NCBI GenBank assembly: GCA_030621535.1
Contig: JAUXHM010000021.1
Span: forward strand, 1 to 10,868
Reading direction: 5' to 3'
Length of the DNA stretch: 10,868 nucleotides
Origin: Candidatus Methanophagales archaeon
GTDB taxonomy: Archaea; Halobacteriota; Syntropharchaeia; Alkanophagales; Methanospirareceae
This document shows, piece after piece, positions 1,784 through 9,222 of the stretch (its first letter is position 1; each line of letters opens with the position of its first letter). The notes below the pieces were generated by a model, which saw nothing but the letters and a program-made list of their open reading frames with translations, did no database searches and had not been told where the DNA came from. The translations under genes were made by a program, and so were the position numbers.

Positions 1784-2326
1784 ATGGACATGGGTCTAAG
1801 AAAAATCGCAATGCAGAAGGAATTAACAGGCAATAACCATCAACAGACATTGTTTGCTGAGGAAATTACCAACGGTAAAAACCTTTTATCACCCTGACTC
1901 AACCCGACAAAAATTAGAACATAAATTCAAAAATCCCATACACGAAGAATTAACGTTAGGCTCACTTGTTTCATACGTAGGAAATAGAAACGTCCCATTC
2001 CTGAGAATTTATAGATATAAAGAAGCATTTGCCTTCGATTTTGTAATGGACTTCTTGAGACGGTTCGAAGCAGATTCCGATGATTATGTATTTGACCCTT
2101 TTTCCGGATTGGGAACAACGATGTGCACATCCACGATTTGCGGTATTCCTTCAGTGGGAATTGATAAATTGCCGATAGCTTATTTTACCTCAAAAACCTT
2201 GCCGTTACTTTTACTATTGAAAGAAAATGAACTGAAGGAAATCTGGACTTCTCTAACACCCAAAATACAAAGAAGTGAACCTGCTGAAGTGGCATTGGGT
2301 GTTCCCCTTGCTAAAAATCTTCATAT
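1784..2326 (+). pseudogene. broken DNA methyltransferase (N4/N6-type), frameshifted and 3'-truncated
   Basis: The frame starting at ATG 1854 contains the AdoMet-binding motif DPFSGLGTT (residues 81-89) followed by GIPSVGIDKLPIA, typical of amino-methyltransferases that modify DNA at adenine N6 or cytosine N4. The homology-like sequence stops near VPLAKN. From about 2326 the frame continues only as antisense of ccmE, to a stop at 2376-2378, so the catalytic and target-recognition parts are missing. Upstream, ATG 1784 opens a 37-codon frame in another phase whose HQQTLFAEEITNGKNLLSP looks like a genuine methyltransferase N-terminus and ends at 1897, next to HPDSTRQKL in the main frame. This suggests an indel near 1885-1897. 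It is a relic of a restriction-modification or orphan methylase gene. A (D/N)PPY motif was not seen. Confidence 0.65.
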
Positions 2327-2698
2327 TTACTCATACTTTGATGGGCATTTAACCAATAGCTGTGTCGCATTCATGTGATATGGGGCAGTCAGTTTTCCGA
2401 TGGCAACGGCCTTTTGCCCCTCTTTGAGACCCTGAGGGTGGACTCCTGAATATGTTACCTTGATTGTGGCTTTGCCGTCAGTGAGGTTGAAAAGCAGCGT
2501 GCCGTCCTCAGCCAGATGTAATGACCCATCGGCAACTGTGTCCAAAATCTGGATTTCTTTGCCAATGTATTCCTCATTCCCTGCGACATCCGAGACCGCT
2601 AAATACGGATTGATAAAAGACGAAAAGGCATCGTATGCGAAAATAGCGCTTAGAGCGACCAGCGCGAAAACGATGATGTGTACCGCTTTGATTTTCAT
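2327..2698 (-). CDS. ccmE: CcmE-like haem chaperone with CxxxY motif
   Basis: This 123-residue protein has one N-terminal membrane anchor (about residues 5-22) and a small beta-rich domain with GTLLFNLTDG and KEGQKAVAIGKL, the OB-fold pattern of CcmE. CcmE holds haem on the outer membrane face and hands it to the cytochrome c ligation machinery. The usual haem-binding HxxxY is replaced by Cys118-Pro-Ser-Lys-Tyr122. Cysteine at this position is known from archaeal and some deltaproteobacterial 'System I*' pathways. The protein ends one residue after the tyrosine, shorter than most CcmE, and its stop lies at the junction with the truncated methyltransferase, so a lost tail is possible. A TTAAATA box about 27 bases upstream could drive a leaderless message. 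The leader is a near copy of the ccmB leader. Confidence 0.85.
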   Translation of the reverse strand: MKIKAVHIIVFALVALSAIFAYDAFSSFINPYLAVSDVAGNEEYIGKEIQILDTVADGSLHLAEDGTLLFNLTDGKATIKVTYSGVHPQGLKEGQKAVAIGKLTAPYHMNATQLLVKCPSKYE

Positions 2699-2817
2699 TG
2701 TATATAAGGTATAACTTCCTTCTATTTAAGACACAGATTTACACTGATTTACGCAGATTTATTTTTTCATCTGTGTTAATCTGCGTTAATCTGTGTCAAC
2801 GATTTATTTTTTCTTGT
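2692..2817 (-). repeat. leader repeat upstream of ccmE, inverted partner of the ccmB leader
   Basis: Read leftward, this stretch runs from the last codons of ccmD through an ACACAGATT-type palindromic repeat to the ATG of ccmE. It matches 4391-4577 in the same order. Shared blocks include ACAAGAAAA, TTGACACAGATTAACGC, AACACAGATGA, a 26-base identical block (2736-2761 here, 4507-4532 there), GAAGGA and ATACAATGAAAA. Internally, GACACAGATT at 2730 pairs with AATCTGTGTC at 2788-2797. The stop codon of ccmD lies inside the repeat. Confidence 0.9.
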
Positions 2818-2942
2818 TTTTCTCCTTCCAATTCCGCTATCCTCTCTTTAAGCGCAGACAGCCGTCTGTTAAGCCATACAAAGAGTACTAACAGCGTCGT
2901 CCAGTAAATGACGGAAACGACGAATATTCCATATACATCCAT
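2796..2942 (-). CDS. ccmD: CcmD-like small membrane protein
   Basis: A 48-residue frame starts 6 bases after the ccmC stop and is preceded by a perfect GGAGGTGAT ribosome binding site. It has an N-terminal hydrophobic segment (about residues 4-23, ending in LFVWLNRRL) and then a charged amphipathic tail, ALKERIAELEGEKQEK, that would form a short coiled coil. This is the architecture of CcmD, the small membrane subunit that helps release holo-CcmE from the CcmABC complex. CcmD proteins are too divergent to identify by sequence alone. The call rests on architecture, size and position between ccmC and ccmE. Its TGA stop overlaps the start of the leader repeat, so its C-terminus may have been set by that repeat. 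Confidence 0.7.
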   Translation of the reverse strand: MDVYGIFVVSVIYWTTLLVLFVWLNRRLSALKERIAELEGEKQEKINR

Positions 2943-2948
2943 CTCTTT

Positions 2949-3611
2949 CTAATCACCTCCTCCACCTTCTCCTTTTTCGTATGTTAATCTATTTACACGG
3001 TCTTCTAAAGACCAGACTGCGAATGCAGTTATCAAAAGATAAATGAAAAAGAGTAAAGCTGCTATAAGGTTCAGCGACAACGTCTGTTTTACCGGCAAAG
3101 CCATAGAAATTTCTGAAGCTTTCGGATGGAGTGAGCCCCACAGGGTTACCGAAAGAAAAGTCAGGGGTATGGTGGAAAAAGCCAGGATATTGTACACCGC
3201 ACCTACCAAAGCTCCTTTCTCGACACTTCCGATGGAAAGTTTTAGCGATAGATAGCCCATGTACGCAATCCAGAGTATAAGCATGGTTGTTTGTTTTGGG
3301 TCCCAGTTCCAGTACGCACCCCAGGAGGCATTTGCCCAAATCGAACCAGAAATCAGAGCTACCGCGCCATAAACCAATCCTAAAATCGTTGATACTTCTG
3401 CAGCCCTGTCGTATTCCAGTTTCCTCTTCCATAGGTACATTATGCTCGCAACGAGTGAGACGAAAAAAGCGAGAAAACAAATCAGGGCGACGGGTACGTG
3501 CGTATATGAGAAGTAAAGGTCCTCCCTTACAGGTTGGACGGCAACGTAAGCCATATAAGAAGCGACCACGCTCAATGCTACGGCAACACAAAGGAGAATA
3601 TCTCGCTTCAT
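2949..3611 (-). CDS. ccmC: CcmC, haem-handling membrane protein of cytochrome c maturation
   Basis: This 220-residue protein has about six membrane segments and the tryptophan-rich WWD signature WGAYWNWDPKQT (residues 97-108), which binds haem on the outer membrane face. Two flanking histidines, His38 (SYTHVPV) and His162 (LWGSLHPKA), sit where CcmC carries its axial haem ligands. CcmC loads haem onto CcmE with help from the CcmAB ATPase and CcmD. Length fits CcmC rather than the much larger CcmF. The gene is first in a leftward unit with ccmD and ccmE, and a TATA box at 3648-3657 lies about 40 bases upstream of ATG 3611. The glycine-rich end GEGGGGD is partly imposed by the ribosome binding site of ccmD encoded there. 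Confidence 0.93.
   Translation of the reverse strand: MKRDILLCVAVALSVVASYMAYVAVQPVREDLYFSYTHVPVALICFLAFFVSLVASIMYLWKRKLEYDRAAEVSTILGLVYGAVALISGSIWANASWGAYWNWDPKQTTMLILWIAYMGYLSLKLSIGSVEKGALVGAVYNILAFSTIPLTFLSVTLWGSLHPKASEISMALPVKQTLSLNLIAALLFFIYLLITAFAVWSLEDRVNRLTYEKGEGGGGD
2952..2960 (-). promoter_or_regulatory. ribosome binding site for ccmD inside ccmC
   Basis: On the minus strand this reads GGAGGTGAT, fully complementary to the 16S rRNA 3' end, ending 9 bases before ATG 2942. It supports the small frame as a translated gene. Confidence 0.8.
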
Positions 3612-3647
3612 TTCTTTTACTATCCTAATTCTTTATAACGCCTTTCC

Positions 3648-3657
3648 TTATATAAAA
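3648..3657. promoter_or_regulatory. shared TATA box between ccmC and ccmA
   Basis: The 102-base gap between the divergent genes contains TTATATAAAA, of which TTATATAA is a perfect palindrome. On the minus strand a start site 26 bases away would give ccmC a short leader of about 13 bases. On the plus strand it would give ccmA a leader of about 36 bases. A single symmetric TATA box may therefore drive both halves of the locus. Assignment is by position and motif only. Confidence 0.6.
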
Positions 3658-3702
3658 ACGTCAAAAAAATATGGAGATATGGGGATAGAATGCATAAGTA
3701 CA

Positions 3703-3710
3703 GGTGGTGA
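3703..3710 (+). promoter_or_regulatory. ribosome binding site of ccmA
   Basis: GGTGGTGA lies 3 bases before ATG 3714 and is a good archaeal Shine-Dalgarno match. It fixes the ccmA start. Confidence 0.65.
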
Positions 3711-3713
3711 CAA

Positions 3714-4370
3714 ATGTCTAACAACAGCATAGCAGTGAAAATCACCGAAGTGTCGAAGCGATACGGCTACTTGCAGGCGTTAAAATCCGTGTCGTTGGAA
3801 ATAGCAGCATCGGAATTTTTGGTTTTTTCGGGTCATAACGGAGCGGGGAAGACGACATTGCTGAAAATAATTGCCACGCATATCTCGCCATCTTCGGGAA
3901 CGCTGAAAATATTTGGTGCGGATGCATTCAAAAACGGGGGTGAAACAAGGAGAAGAATTGGATTAGTAACGCATGAAAGCTTTCTTTATGATGAACTGAC
4001 CGTCAGGGAGAACCTGCTATTCTATGCGAAACAGTTCGGTGCAGGAGAAGAGGACTTCCTCGCCACGGTGGAATTTTTGGGTTTGAAGCGCTGGTATAAC
4101 GTCTATGTAAAGCAGCTCTCGCATGGACTAAGAAAAAGGGCGGACATCGTGAGGGCGTTAATCCACAATCCTGATTTAATTCTGCTTGACGAACCTTTCT
4201 CGGGGCTGGACACGAAAACCTGTGACGTGCTTGTAGATTACTTCAAAAGTCACGAAGGCAAAGGCAAGACGCTATTAATATCGTCCCACTCCTTGGAGTG
4301 GTCGAAGAAGATTTGCGATAAAGGGATTTTGCTCGATAAAGGTAAAATAGTTGGAGAAATGACATTTTAG
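3714..4370 (+). CDS. ccmA: CcmA, ATPase of the haem-handling ABC complex
   Basis: This 218-residue ABC ATPase has a complete set of motifs: Walker A GHNGAGKT (residues 40-47), signature LSHGLRKR (135-142), Walker B LILLDEP (155-161), D-loop SGLD and switch His192 (SSHSLE). The Q-loop position carries His-Glu (THESFLYDELT) instead of the usual glutamine. CcmA hydrolyses ATP at the inner face of the CcmABCD complex and drives release of haem-loaded CcmE from CcmC. The short length, lack of extra domains and the neighbouring ccmB and ccmC distinguish it from other ABC exporters. It is transcribed rightward from the promoter shared with ccmC, and a 200-base spacer holding a repeat separates it from ccmB. 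Confidence 0.9.
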   Translation: MSNNSIAVKITEVSKRYGYLQALKSVSLEIAASEFLVFSGHNGAGKTTLLKIIATHISPSSGTLKIFGADAFKNGGETRRRIGLVTHESFLYDELTVRENLLFYAKQFGAGEEDFLATVEFLGLKRWYNVYVKQLSHGLRKRADIVRALIHNPDLILLDEPFSGLDTKTCDVLVDYFKSHEGKGKTLLISSHSLEWSKKICDKGILLDKGKIVGEMTF

Positions 4371-4390
4371 AGATAGAGCGGGGTGTTTCA

Positions 4391-4577
4391 ACAAGAAAAC
4401 AAATTATTGACACAGATTAACGCTTGTGGGCTCTGCCCACATCACCGCAAGCCCTGAAAGGGCTTAATTAACACAGATGATAAGAATCAACACGGTTAAA
4501 CTAAACTAAATCTGCGTAAATCAGTGTAAATCCGTGTCTCAAATGGAAGGAGGTTAAGTTACTTTATACAATGAAAA
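4391..4577 (+). repeat. leader repeat upstream of ccmB with nested hairpins
   Basis: This is the inverted partner of 2692-2817 and runs from the ccmA-ccmB spacer to the ATG of ccmB. Its outer GACACAGATT (4409) and AATCCGTGTC (4529-4538) form the palindromic ends. Compared with the ccmE copy it has an extra stretch after AACGC, around 4424-4468, containing two perfect hairpins: TGTGGGC-TCT-GCCCACA (4425-4441) and AAGCCC-TGAAA-GGGCTT (4449-4465). A second extra stretch near 4482-4506 is A-rich. Confidence 0.9.
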
Positions 4578-5266
4578 ATATCCGGAGTGGGGAATTCCAA
4601 AGAGCCGCATTGGGAATAGCGGAGAAAGACCTGAGGACAGAATTCCGGCGGTCTTATGAGATTCTATCTATCCTTTCTTTTTCGGTGGGTTCCATTCTGA
4701 TTTGCAGCTTTGCGTGGAGTGGCGGCGATGCGACAGACCCCGAAGTGGCAGGTGCAGCACTATGGGTTATCCTTTTCTTTTCAAGTATCCTTGTGTTTAC
4801 TACTTCGTTCACGCGTGAAGCAGACCGGGGAACGCTTGGCGGTTTGAAAACACTGCCTTGCTCATCGCTGGCAATCCTGCTCGGGAAAATCATCTATGGA
4901 ACGGCACTGCTATTTTTCGTTGAATGCGTGTTAATTCCGTTTTCCATCATCTTTTTAAATCTCGAGCTGGGCACACGATTTCCCGCTCTATTGCTTGTAT
5001 GTTTCTTAGGTGCGATTGGACTTTCATTTGCAGGTTCCTTTGTTTCCGGGCTCGTAATGTTCTCGGAAGGCAAGACCCTGCTTCTTTCTTTTCTTCTTAT
5101 TCCTATTTGTATGCCGGTGCTTATCCCATCGGTCATGGCAACAGTGAAAATCGTCAGTGGTTCGGGTATAGCCGAAGTAATACCGGAATTAAGACTGTTA
5201 ATCGCTTTTCTGTTCCTGATAACGGCGATAATGGTTCTTACCTTTGAGTTCGTGCTTGAAGAATAG
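4571..5266 (+). CDS. ccmB: CcmB, membrane subunit of the haem-handling ABC complex
   Basis: This 231-residue protein has about six membrane segments and the cytoplasmic coupling region TREADRGTLGGLKTLP (about residues 81-96), characteristic of CcmB, where it contacts CcmA. CcmB, CcmA, CcmC and CcmD form the complex that releases holo-CcmE. The start at ATG 4571 is supported because ATACAATGAAAA at this point is identical to the start of ccmE and no in-frame upstream start exists. The strong GGAGG lies 18 bases upstream, farther than usual. The gene follows ccmA on the same strand but is separated by the inverted leader repeat, so it may have its own promoter. A VapBC-type pair follows 31 bases later. 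Confidence 0.88.
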   Translation: MKNIRSGEFQRAALGIAEKDLRTEFRRSYEILSILSFSVGSILICSFAWSGGDATDPEVAGAALWVILFFSSILVFTTSFTREADRGTLGGLKTLPCSSLAILLGKIIYGTALLFFVECVLIPFSIIFLNLELGTRFPALLLVCFLGAIGLSFAGSFVSGLVMFSEGKTLLLSFLLIPICMPVLIPSVMATVKIVSGSGIAEVIPELRLLIAFLFLITAIMVLTFEFVLEE

Positions 5267-5297
5267 TTTTTTAAGCTATTCGAAGTTAAAGTTAAGC

Positions 5298-5540
5298 ATG
5301 GTAAAAACGATAACTATACGGGATGACGTCTATGAAAAACTTCGCGTGCTGAAAGGGGATGAGTCGCTCAGTGATTTGATTGAAAGAATGATTGGTGGAG
5401 GGAGAGGAAAAGGAATTGACGTGCTTAAAAAGATCAGGGAAACCATTGATCTAAGCAGCGAAGAAAAGGAGGCAGTTCTTAAGGAAATATACAAGAAAAG
5501 AGGTGAAAAGAGAGATTTCGATGATTGTCTTAGATACTGA
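5298..5540 (+). CDS. VapB-type antitoxin (DUF217-like)
   Basis: ATG 5298 gives an 80-residue protein beginning VKTITIRDDVYEKL, followed by ESLSDLIERMIGGG. This is the N-terminal pattern of the archaeal DUF217 antitoxin family, with a predicted ribbon-helix-type DNA-binding start and a charged helical C-terminus for binding the toxin. Starting at the upstream ATG 5244 would add 18 unrelated residues overlapping ccmB, so 5298 is preferred. It overlaps the downstream PIN-domain gene by 20 bases. Such antitoxins neutralise VapC and repress their own operon. A T-rich box about 27 bases upstream may be its promoter. Confidence 0.8.
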   Translation: MVKTITIRDDVYEKLRVLKGDESLSDLIERMIGGGRGKGIDVLKKIRETIDLSSEEKEAVLKEIYKKRGEKRDFDDCLRY

Positions 5541-5898
5541 TGTCTTGATAGAGATCTTCGATAGGAAGTCAGCAGTGGGGGAGGAGATCCTGGGAAAAAT
5601 AGAGGGGTATAAGGTTGCAACTACTTCTATTAACCTGCATGAGATAGTTTATGGATTTTACAAGGTGAAAAAGGAGATTATAAAAGAGCTTATGGAATTC
5701 AACATTTTAGAGTACACAAGGGGTGATGCGCTCCTGTCTGCGAAGCTTGAATCGGCACTCGAAAAGATTGGAAAACCCGTCGGCAGGTTCGATACAATGA
5801 TTGCTGCAATTTGCATAAATCGTGATGCTATGCTCTCAACGTTGAACAGGACGCACTTTGAAAGATTTGTCGGGTTTGGGCTGAGATTGTTCGACTGA
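5521..5898 (+). CDS. vapC: VapC-type PIN-domain toxin ribonuclease
   Basis: The 125-residue protein starts MIVLDTDVLIEIF and carries the acidic PIN residues Asp5, Glu41 (INLHEIVYG) and Asp91 (GRFDTMIAA), with LSTLNRTHFERF near the end, the region of the fourth active-site position. PIN toxins are magnesium-dependent RNases that cleave tRNA or rRNA when freed from the antitoxin. ATG 5521 is chosen over an upstream in-frame ATG at 5503 because the family begins directly with the MIVLDT strand. The 20-base overlap with the antitoxin gene is typical for VapBC operons. Length is normal and nothing suggests inactivation. Confidence 0.88.
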   Translation: MIVLDTDVLIEIFDRKSAVGEEILGKIEGYKVATTSINLHEIVYGFYKVKKEIIKELMEFNILEYTRGDALLSAKLESALEKIGKPVGRFDTMIAAICINRDAMLSTLNRTHFERFVGFGLRLFD

Positions 5899-7196: not shown

Positions 7197-7282
7197 ACCG
7201 CAGAGCACATGGAGAACGCAGAGGCACCAGAAAAATCTAAACAACGATTAAAACAGTCTTAAAACTCTGCGCTCTCTGCGGT
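7197..7282. repeat. intergenic inverted repeat of the CCGCAGAG type
   Basis: The left arm ACCGCAGAG (7197-7205), followed by AACGCAGAG, faces CTCTGCG and CTCTGCGGT (7274-7282). The outer 9 bases are perfectly complementary. The unit occupies the gap between the 161-residue protein gene and the stress protein gene. Similar GCAGAG palindromes are common intergenic repeats in prokaryotes. Here it could also end transcription of the two converging genes. Confidence 0.75.
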
Positions 7283-7300
7283 TAATCTGACAATGTCATC

Positions 7301-9109: not shown

Positions 9110-9222
9110 ACCACAAGATTACACAGATTTTCACGAGAAAAAGAATAATATTAACCTTATCTCAGCACACTATTGATTTCTTTACCCCTTGTTAATCCCA
9201 TCACTTGTGTTAATCTCGTTGT
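9110..9222. repeat. degenerate ACACAGATT-type intergenic repeat
   Basis: ACCACAAGATTACACAG (around 9110-9126) and the oppositely oriented CTTGTGTTAATCTCGTTG (around 9204-9221) form imperfect arms of the same general type as the ccm leader repeats, but much diverged. They fill most of the 273-base gap between the divergent ahbC and HdrA-like genes, which holds no gene. Confidence 0.5.

Follow-up and report, generated by a model that had tools for sequence, protein, structure and literature searches.

The 10,868-nt stretch analysed here, called the window throughout (contig JAUXHM010000021.1 of a Candidatus Methanophagales archaeon, assembly GCA_030621535.1), carries a cluster of ccm genes in which two similar leader sequences directly precede the oppositely oriented ccmE and ccmB. 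Both leaders are copies, termed A and B below, of a short element that is dispersed through one ANME-1 genus (ANME, anaerobic methanotrophic archaea) and whose right end resembles an archaeal promoter. The genome holding the window (G000) is a partial ANME-1 genome of 1,090,776 bases in 170 contigs with a completeness of 60.6%, and was compared with five congeners (G001–G005). The assignments of ccmE, ccmD, ccmC, ccmA and ccmB given in an earlier note on this DNA hold, those of CcmE, CcmC and CcmB by Pfam, that of CcmA by the fit of the protein and that of ccmD by position. The features on which the following analysis relies are

2327..2698, minus strand: ccmE, the gene downstream of copy A (Pfam CcmE, E 1.4e-19)
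2692..2817, minus: copy A, touching the ccmE start from upstream (member of the BLAST family; core site C85:2718-2742)
2699..2707, minus: TTATATACA, fixed right end of copy A and proposed start region (constant spacing to the core in most copies; putative role)
2700..2807, minus: part of copy A (108 nt) missing from the empty ccmD/ccmE site of G005 (filled/empty comparison)
2722..2729, minus: TTAAATAG, proposed TATA box of copy A, centred ca. 27 nt upstream of the ccmE ATG (position from the sequence; putative promoter role)
2730..2758, minus: right arm of a hairpin lying within copy A (inverted repeat; fold)
2769..2797, minus: left arm of the same hairpin (inverted repeat; fold)
2796..2942, minus: ccmD-like open reading frame (ORF) of 48 aa with its 3' end reaching into copy A (no Pfam match; tblastn position in relatives and alignment)
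2949-3611, minus: CcmC (Pfam)
3714-4370, plus: ABC ATPase fitting CcmA
4391..4566, plus, ends uncertain by a few bases: copy B in the ccmA-ccmB gap, stopping just short of the ccmB start (site empty in G005, L073 and L075)
4424..4470, plus: additional middle module TTGTGGGCTCTGCCCACA...GGGCTTAATTA of copy B (same module in L030, L041 and other copies)
4539..4546, plus: TCAAATGG, the copy B counterpart of TTAAATAG, a poorer TATA match (position from the sequence)
4571..5266, plus: ccmB, the gene downstream of copy B (Pfam CcmB, E 1.2e-18)

The inverted leaders at 2692–2817 (minus) and 4391–4577 (plus) had been described as sharing ordered identical blocks, which is borne out by the inverted-repeat listing and by alignment. 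Along the ccmE leader the identical blocks are TTGACACAGATTAACGC (17 nt), ATTAACACAGATGA (14 nt), TAAATCTGCGTAAATCAGTGTAAATC (26 nt) and TATACAATGAAAA (13 nt, across the start codon). Two arm pairs, 2712–2765/4503–4556 (54 nt, 91% complementary) and 2783–2810/4396–4423 (28 nt, 89% complementary), are the first and second of the 46 inverted pairs listed in the window, and the leaders are of unequal length with 126 nt before ccmE and 187 nt before ccmB. The ccmE leader is in itself an inverted repeat (2730–2758/2769–2797), and the RNA fold of this copy has a z value of −6.5, with none of 200 shuffles as good. The claim of a shared start codon stands insofar as the 13-base block spans the ATG; the ATGAAAA following the repeat is native to both genes, and part of the supposedly shared start is therefore target sequence and not repeat.

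The earlier note had named the presence of the same leaders at many unrelated genes as the observation that would reduce them to a dispersed repeat, and this is what was found. The ccmE leader matches at least 46 places in G000 by BLAST (best 40 of 125 candidates scored). A core pattern of 25 bases, with up to three mismatches allowed and the reversed pattern as control, occurs at 56 sites in the partial G000 genome and at 154, 124, 36, 89 and 105 sites in the five congeners, the reversed controls giving 0 throughout. Core sites number 1–30 in 10 of 18 genomes from the rest of the family, and 0 in 15 genomes outside it; the left arm alone, at the same tolerance of three mismatches, is found in 30 of 294 genomes sampled across the phylum, 27 of them in the same family and 3 elsewhere. 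When the copies in G000 are ranked by BLAST score, counting from 0 with the query itself first, the ccmB copy takes rank 38 for the ccmE copy (55 copies matched) and the ccmE copy rank 28 for the ccmB copy (53 copies matched). For either window copy, the majority of the matched copies thus score nearer than the partner copy, which rules out the two leaders as a special pair. They are members of a dispersed family that has multiplied in one ANME-1 genus. Viral contigs gave no exact matches to element copies and Rfam no match in the window at gathering score. No description of the repeat was recognised in the open-access literature searched, and it does not appear in the accessible part of an ANME genomics paper, according to which no ANME lineage has been obtained in pure culture (PMC9012536).

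The anatomy of the element was deduced from 248 copies in stretches around the loci. It measures ca. 75–220 bp, too short for encoding a transposase, and consists of an A-rich left end (ACAAGAAAAYAGAAAATAAATTAT), an arm GACACAGATTAACGCAGATTAACACAGAT, a variable middle, the opposite arm and the right end TTAAATAGAAGGNNGTTATACNTTATATACA. The inverted arms are internal and not terminal, the left and right tails being unlike each other. The right end has a fixed geometry, TTAAATAG-N14-TTATATACA, and is joined to an arm in 161 of 167 cases. The left arm lies 38–196 nt from the core in 134 of the 248 copies, the rest being shorter, diverged or provided with another middle; 16 left-arm distances of 562 nt or more were taken by size alone as unrelated neighbours. 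Several types of middle module are present among the copies, and one and the same insertion site may carry different modules in different genomes (L028 versus L230; the ccmB site in G000, G001 and G004), so that copies seem to exchange parts.

The copies show a pronounced orientation bias. Gene starts face the right end of 41 and the left end of 10 of the 58 copies in G000 (p 1.5e-5), the corresponding values for the 39 copies in G005 being 28 and 6 (p 2e-4), and no copy in these two counts lies inside a called gene. Pooled over five genomes (213 copies, 35 copies from mixed-search loci having been left out), the right neighbour is on the same strand, with its start facing the right end, in 158 cases, on the opposite strand in 30 and absent in 25; the left neighbour is divergent, with its start facing the left end, in 41, on the same strand in 144 and absent in 28. 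Genes are flanking with their 3' ends on both sides in 8 of the 58 G000 copies. Of 217 copies, 48 have ATG and 46 have ATA as the triplet following TTATATACA, and the sequence there is A-rich, with ca. 80% A at offsets 3, 5, 6 and 7.

The insertion polymorphism becomes visible in filled and empty sites. The ccmD/ccmE site is filled in G000 and G004 and empty in G001, G002 and G005; in the empty site of G005 the ccmD stop codon overlaps the ccmE start codon, an overlap that copy A abolishes. The ccmA/ccmB site is filled in G000, G001 and G004 and empty in G005 as well as in the more distant loci L073 and L075, and in G002 the contigs on either side of it end within the copy. No ccm locus was found in G003, where the matches are repeat copies alone. 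With copy B the ccmA-ccmB gap grows from 23 to 200 bases, and copy A brings ccmD to 48 codons in the window versus 45 in L071. Start codon and following A-rich bases are native at both the ccmE and the ccmB site, and the TTAAATAG...TTATATAC end is missing from the empty sites. Beyond the ccm genes, a search yielded 89 copy-versus-locus candidates, many of them redundant or differing in the middle module only, among which at least about ten further filled/empty sites or pairs are clearly readable. Left junctions fall mostly at (A)CAAGAAAA, and right junctions after TATATAC(A), ahead of a native A where unambiguous.

The gene order was compared in 19 of the 80 ccm loci fetched, the nearest ccmC relatives being GoMg1, CSMAG_2436 and AUK217 with identities of 92–95%. 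All 13 loci showing ccmA or ccmB divergent from ccmC have ccmB-ccmA on one side and ccmC-ccmD-ccmE on the other; the remaining six comprise L084, with C-D-E-A-B on one strand, and L081, L082, L086, L087 and L088 with fewer genes. Since the order is kept whether the repeats are present or not, and empty sites are found in several relatives, the locus has received two insertions, each directly before a start codon (ccmE, ccmB) in a tightly packed gene run. At ccmE, where G000 and G004 are filled and nearer relatives empty, the distribution implies that the element either inserted twice or was lost precisely on several occasions, and of these we prefer insertion.

Apart from these sites, the copy at L015 has a congener locus, L173, without its left part, and at L019 a whole composite of three repeat types is absent from G005, which keeps a remnant of one of them. 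The window also holds relics of two other dispersed repeats, at 7197-7290 and 9111-9137 (a CGCAGAG type and a CACAAGATTACACAGATTTTCACGAG type), and repeats of these types adjoin element copies at several other loci.

We consider the element to be similar to a miniature inverted-repeat transposable element (MITE), with a putative archaeal promoter in its right end, inserted before ccmE and ccmB and probably giving rise to leaderless transcripts; the sequence evidence leads us to assign this reading a probability of roughly 0.7. The two insertions, one separating ccmE from ccmD and the other ccmB from ccmA, have left the right end abutting the start codon. This end most likely serves as a promoter with TTAAATAG as TATA box and a transcription start at or just before the ATG, in which case ccmE and ccmB would each gain a transcript of their own, probably a leaderless one. 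Counted from 0 at the core start, TTAAATAG occupies offsets 13–20; ccmE and several other genes have their ATG at offset 44, which places the box centre ca. 27 nt upstream of it. In Methanolobus psychrophilus, according to the accessible part of PMC5378194, the TATA box and the transcription factor B recognition element (BRE) lie ca. 19–22 nt from the start site and ca. 16% of the transcripts are leaderless. Whereas the dispersal, the insertion polymorphism, the orientation bias and the fixed geometry are observed, promoter activity, leaderless start and an effect on ccm expression are inferred.

Element copies also lie upstream of tRNA genes in several places. The distance from the end of TTAAATAG to tRNA-Met, counted by hand as for all tRNA boxes, is 39 nt in G000 and 36 nt in G004, and that of a native tRNA-Val box 37 nt. 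At the first tRNA-Met site in G005 the hairpin is missing and the right end present, and a shared TCTTA suggests a deletion. The alternative box TTTATATA was rejected, as it would place the start inside the tRNA in those cases where the distance from the core start to the tRNA is 57 or 60 nt; TTAAATAG is therefore preferred. Among 22 orthologous pairs the identity amounts to 96% for TTAAATAG, 93% for TTTATATACA, 87% for the arm, 88% for the bases just past the right end and 94% for the downstream flank. A scan of 2300-5300 for sigma-70 promoters and intrinsic terminators found fewer of them than in shuffles.

Several results weigh against this interpretation. The right end is no better kept in the 158 gene-facing copies than in the 30 facing a gene on the opposite strand (p 0.88) or in the 25 that have no gene nearby (p 0.81). 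TATA-like boxes before 222 element-free genes have no sharp position and thus yield no promoter rule for the genus. No obvious purine-rich BRE precedes the box, and the box of copy B, TCAAATGG, matches a TATA box less well. Constant-length target duplications are absent among the filled and empty sites read, and no longer, autonomous copy was recognised among the 248. As a candidate mover, the Y1 transposase, with matches at 11 loci in all six genomes, was rejected, since none of the 11 loci is bracketed by the element, other transposase families not having been searched. The 213 pooled copies include orthologous ones, and their neighbours were called by a simple, crude codon-usage caller that missed ccmE.

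The best surviving rival assumes a silent repeat that merely prefers A-rich targets such as ATGAAAA and for this reason often ends up before start codons. The A-rich bases after TTATATACA, which are native in the empty sites read, agree with it, as does the equally intact right end of copies facing no gene start. However, the bias towards gene starts persists in G000 copies without an ATG at the junction (31 versus 9), TTAAATAG is more conserved than the arm (96% versus 87%, in the orthologous pairs above), and the right end is retained where the hairpin is missing before tRNA-Met. On balance we regard a silent repeat as unlikely.

Distinctly improbable is a regulon operator, that is, a set of vertically kept regulatory leaders that place a defined group of genes under a single regulator. 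It would explain the fixed orientation and position before genes, but the presence of the leaders varies among congeners whose ccm proteins are ca. 95% identical, the middle modules differ at one same site, and 8 of 58 copies lie between gene 3' ends. The related proposal of a duplicated regulatory leader co-ordinating ccmE and ccmB is half right: both copies do belong to one element with a promoter-like right end, but this element is genome-wide and does not pair the two genes specifically. Almost certainly wrong is the idea, put forward in the earlier note, that recombination between the leaders inverts the ccmD-ccmC-ccmA segment. Like an invertible DNA switch, this segment is indeed bracketed by inverted repeats (the 54-nt arms at 91% and the 28-nt arms at 89%). 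The arrangement predicted by inversion (ccmC-ccmD-ccmB or ccmA-ccmE), and hence the alternative orientation, occurs in 0 of the 19 loci compared, and loci lacking the repeats have the same gene order. The leaders recur at many unrelated genes and are not mutually closest, and Pfam reveals no recombinase family among 17 ORFs of the window, a search that did not extend to other parts of the genome.

Returning to the MITE-like, promoter-bearing element, its nearest known counterparts appear to be the promoter-bearing MITEs of bacteria, chief among them the Correia element, a repeat found upstream of genes and provided with strong promoters, as far as stated in the accessible part of PMC10969869. 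By analogy the present element, likewise short, multicopy, upstream of genes and with a promoter, here a predicted one, in the repeat, may work like a MITE. It differs in its internal arms with unlike tails, the lack of a constant target duplication and the apparently archaeal, TATA-type end. The element is short, has 56 core sites in G000 and contains no transposase gene, as expected of a MITE; we do not file it as one because its inverted repeats are not terminal and no constant target duplication was found. Mobile promoters and promoter propagation in prokaryotes are comparable in their near-identical promoter regions before unrelated genes, but here a recognisable element with arms, modules and filled and empty alleles is present, and in an archaeon. 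REPIN/RAYT systems and palindromes derived from IS200/IS605 share the dispersed hairpins, the lack of a constant target duplication and a one-sided conserved flank, but in this genus copies of the element do not flank the Y1 transposase genes on both sides; a single copy lies ca. 0.9–1.4 kb to one side at 3 of the 11 Y1 loci, as might be expected of a repeat this frequent.

Two further features of the window lie outside the element. A VapB antitoxin/PIN toxin pair (5244-5898) is found downstream of ccmB, with matches at the ccm loci L072 and L077 and none at L071, L073 and L075. A pair of similar stretches (type GTTTGTG(A/G)CTCA...GCTTNCGCAC) was spotted by eye at ca. 881-930 and 1684-1750, and the region between them holds two short minus-strand ORFs without Pfam match.

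A more far-reaching and only tentative proposal, which we hold to be possible but rather doubtful as a whole, is that of a mobile “hairpin plus leaderless promoter” cassette that spread through one ANME-1 genus, inserting without target duplication before A-rich start codons by an unrecognised mechanism with a one-sided target, swapping its middle modules and turning the operon-internal ccmE and ccmB into separate transcription units. If true, such a cassette would represent a lineage-specific archaeal route to the rewiring of transcription. To our knowledge ANME-1 has no pure culture, and its gene regulation is little known. If a promoter-like end is brought to start codons, a repeat with 36–154 sites per congener would constitute a major source of regulatory difference between close ANME-1 species, and genes with both a filled and an empty allele would provide natural before/after pairs in which promoter gain in archaea can be followed with metatranscriptomes. 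The insertions in the ccm locus touch the maturation of cytochromes used in electron transfer.

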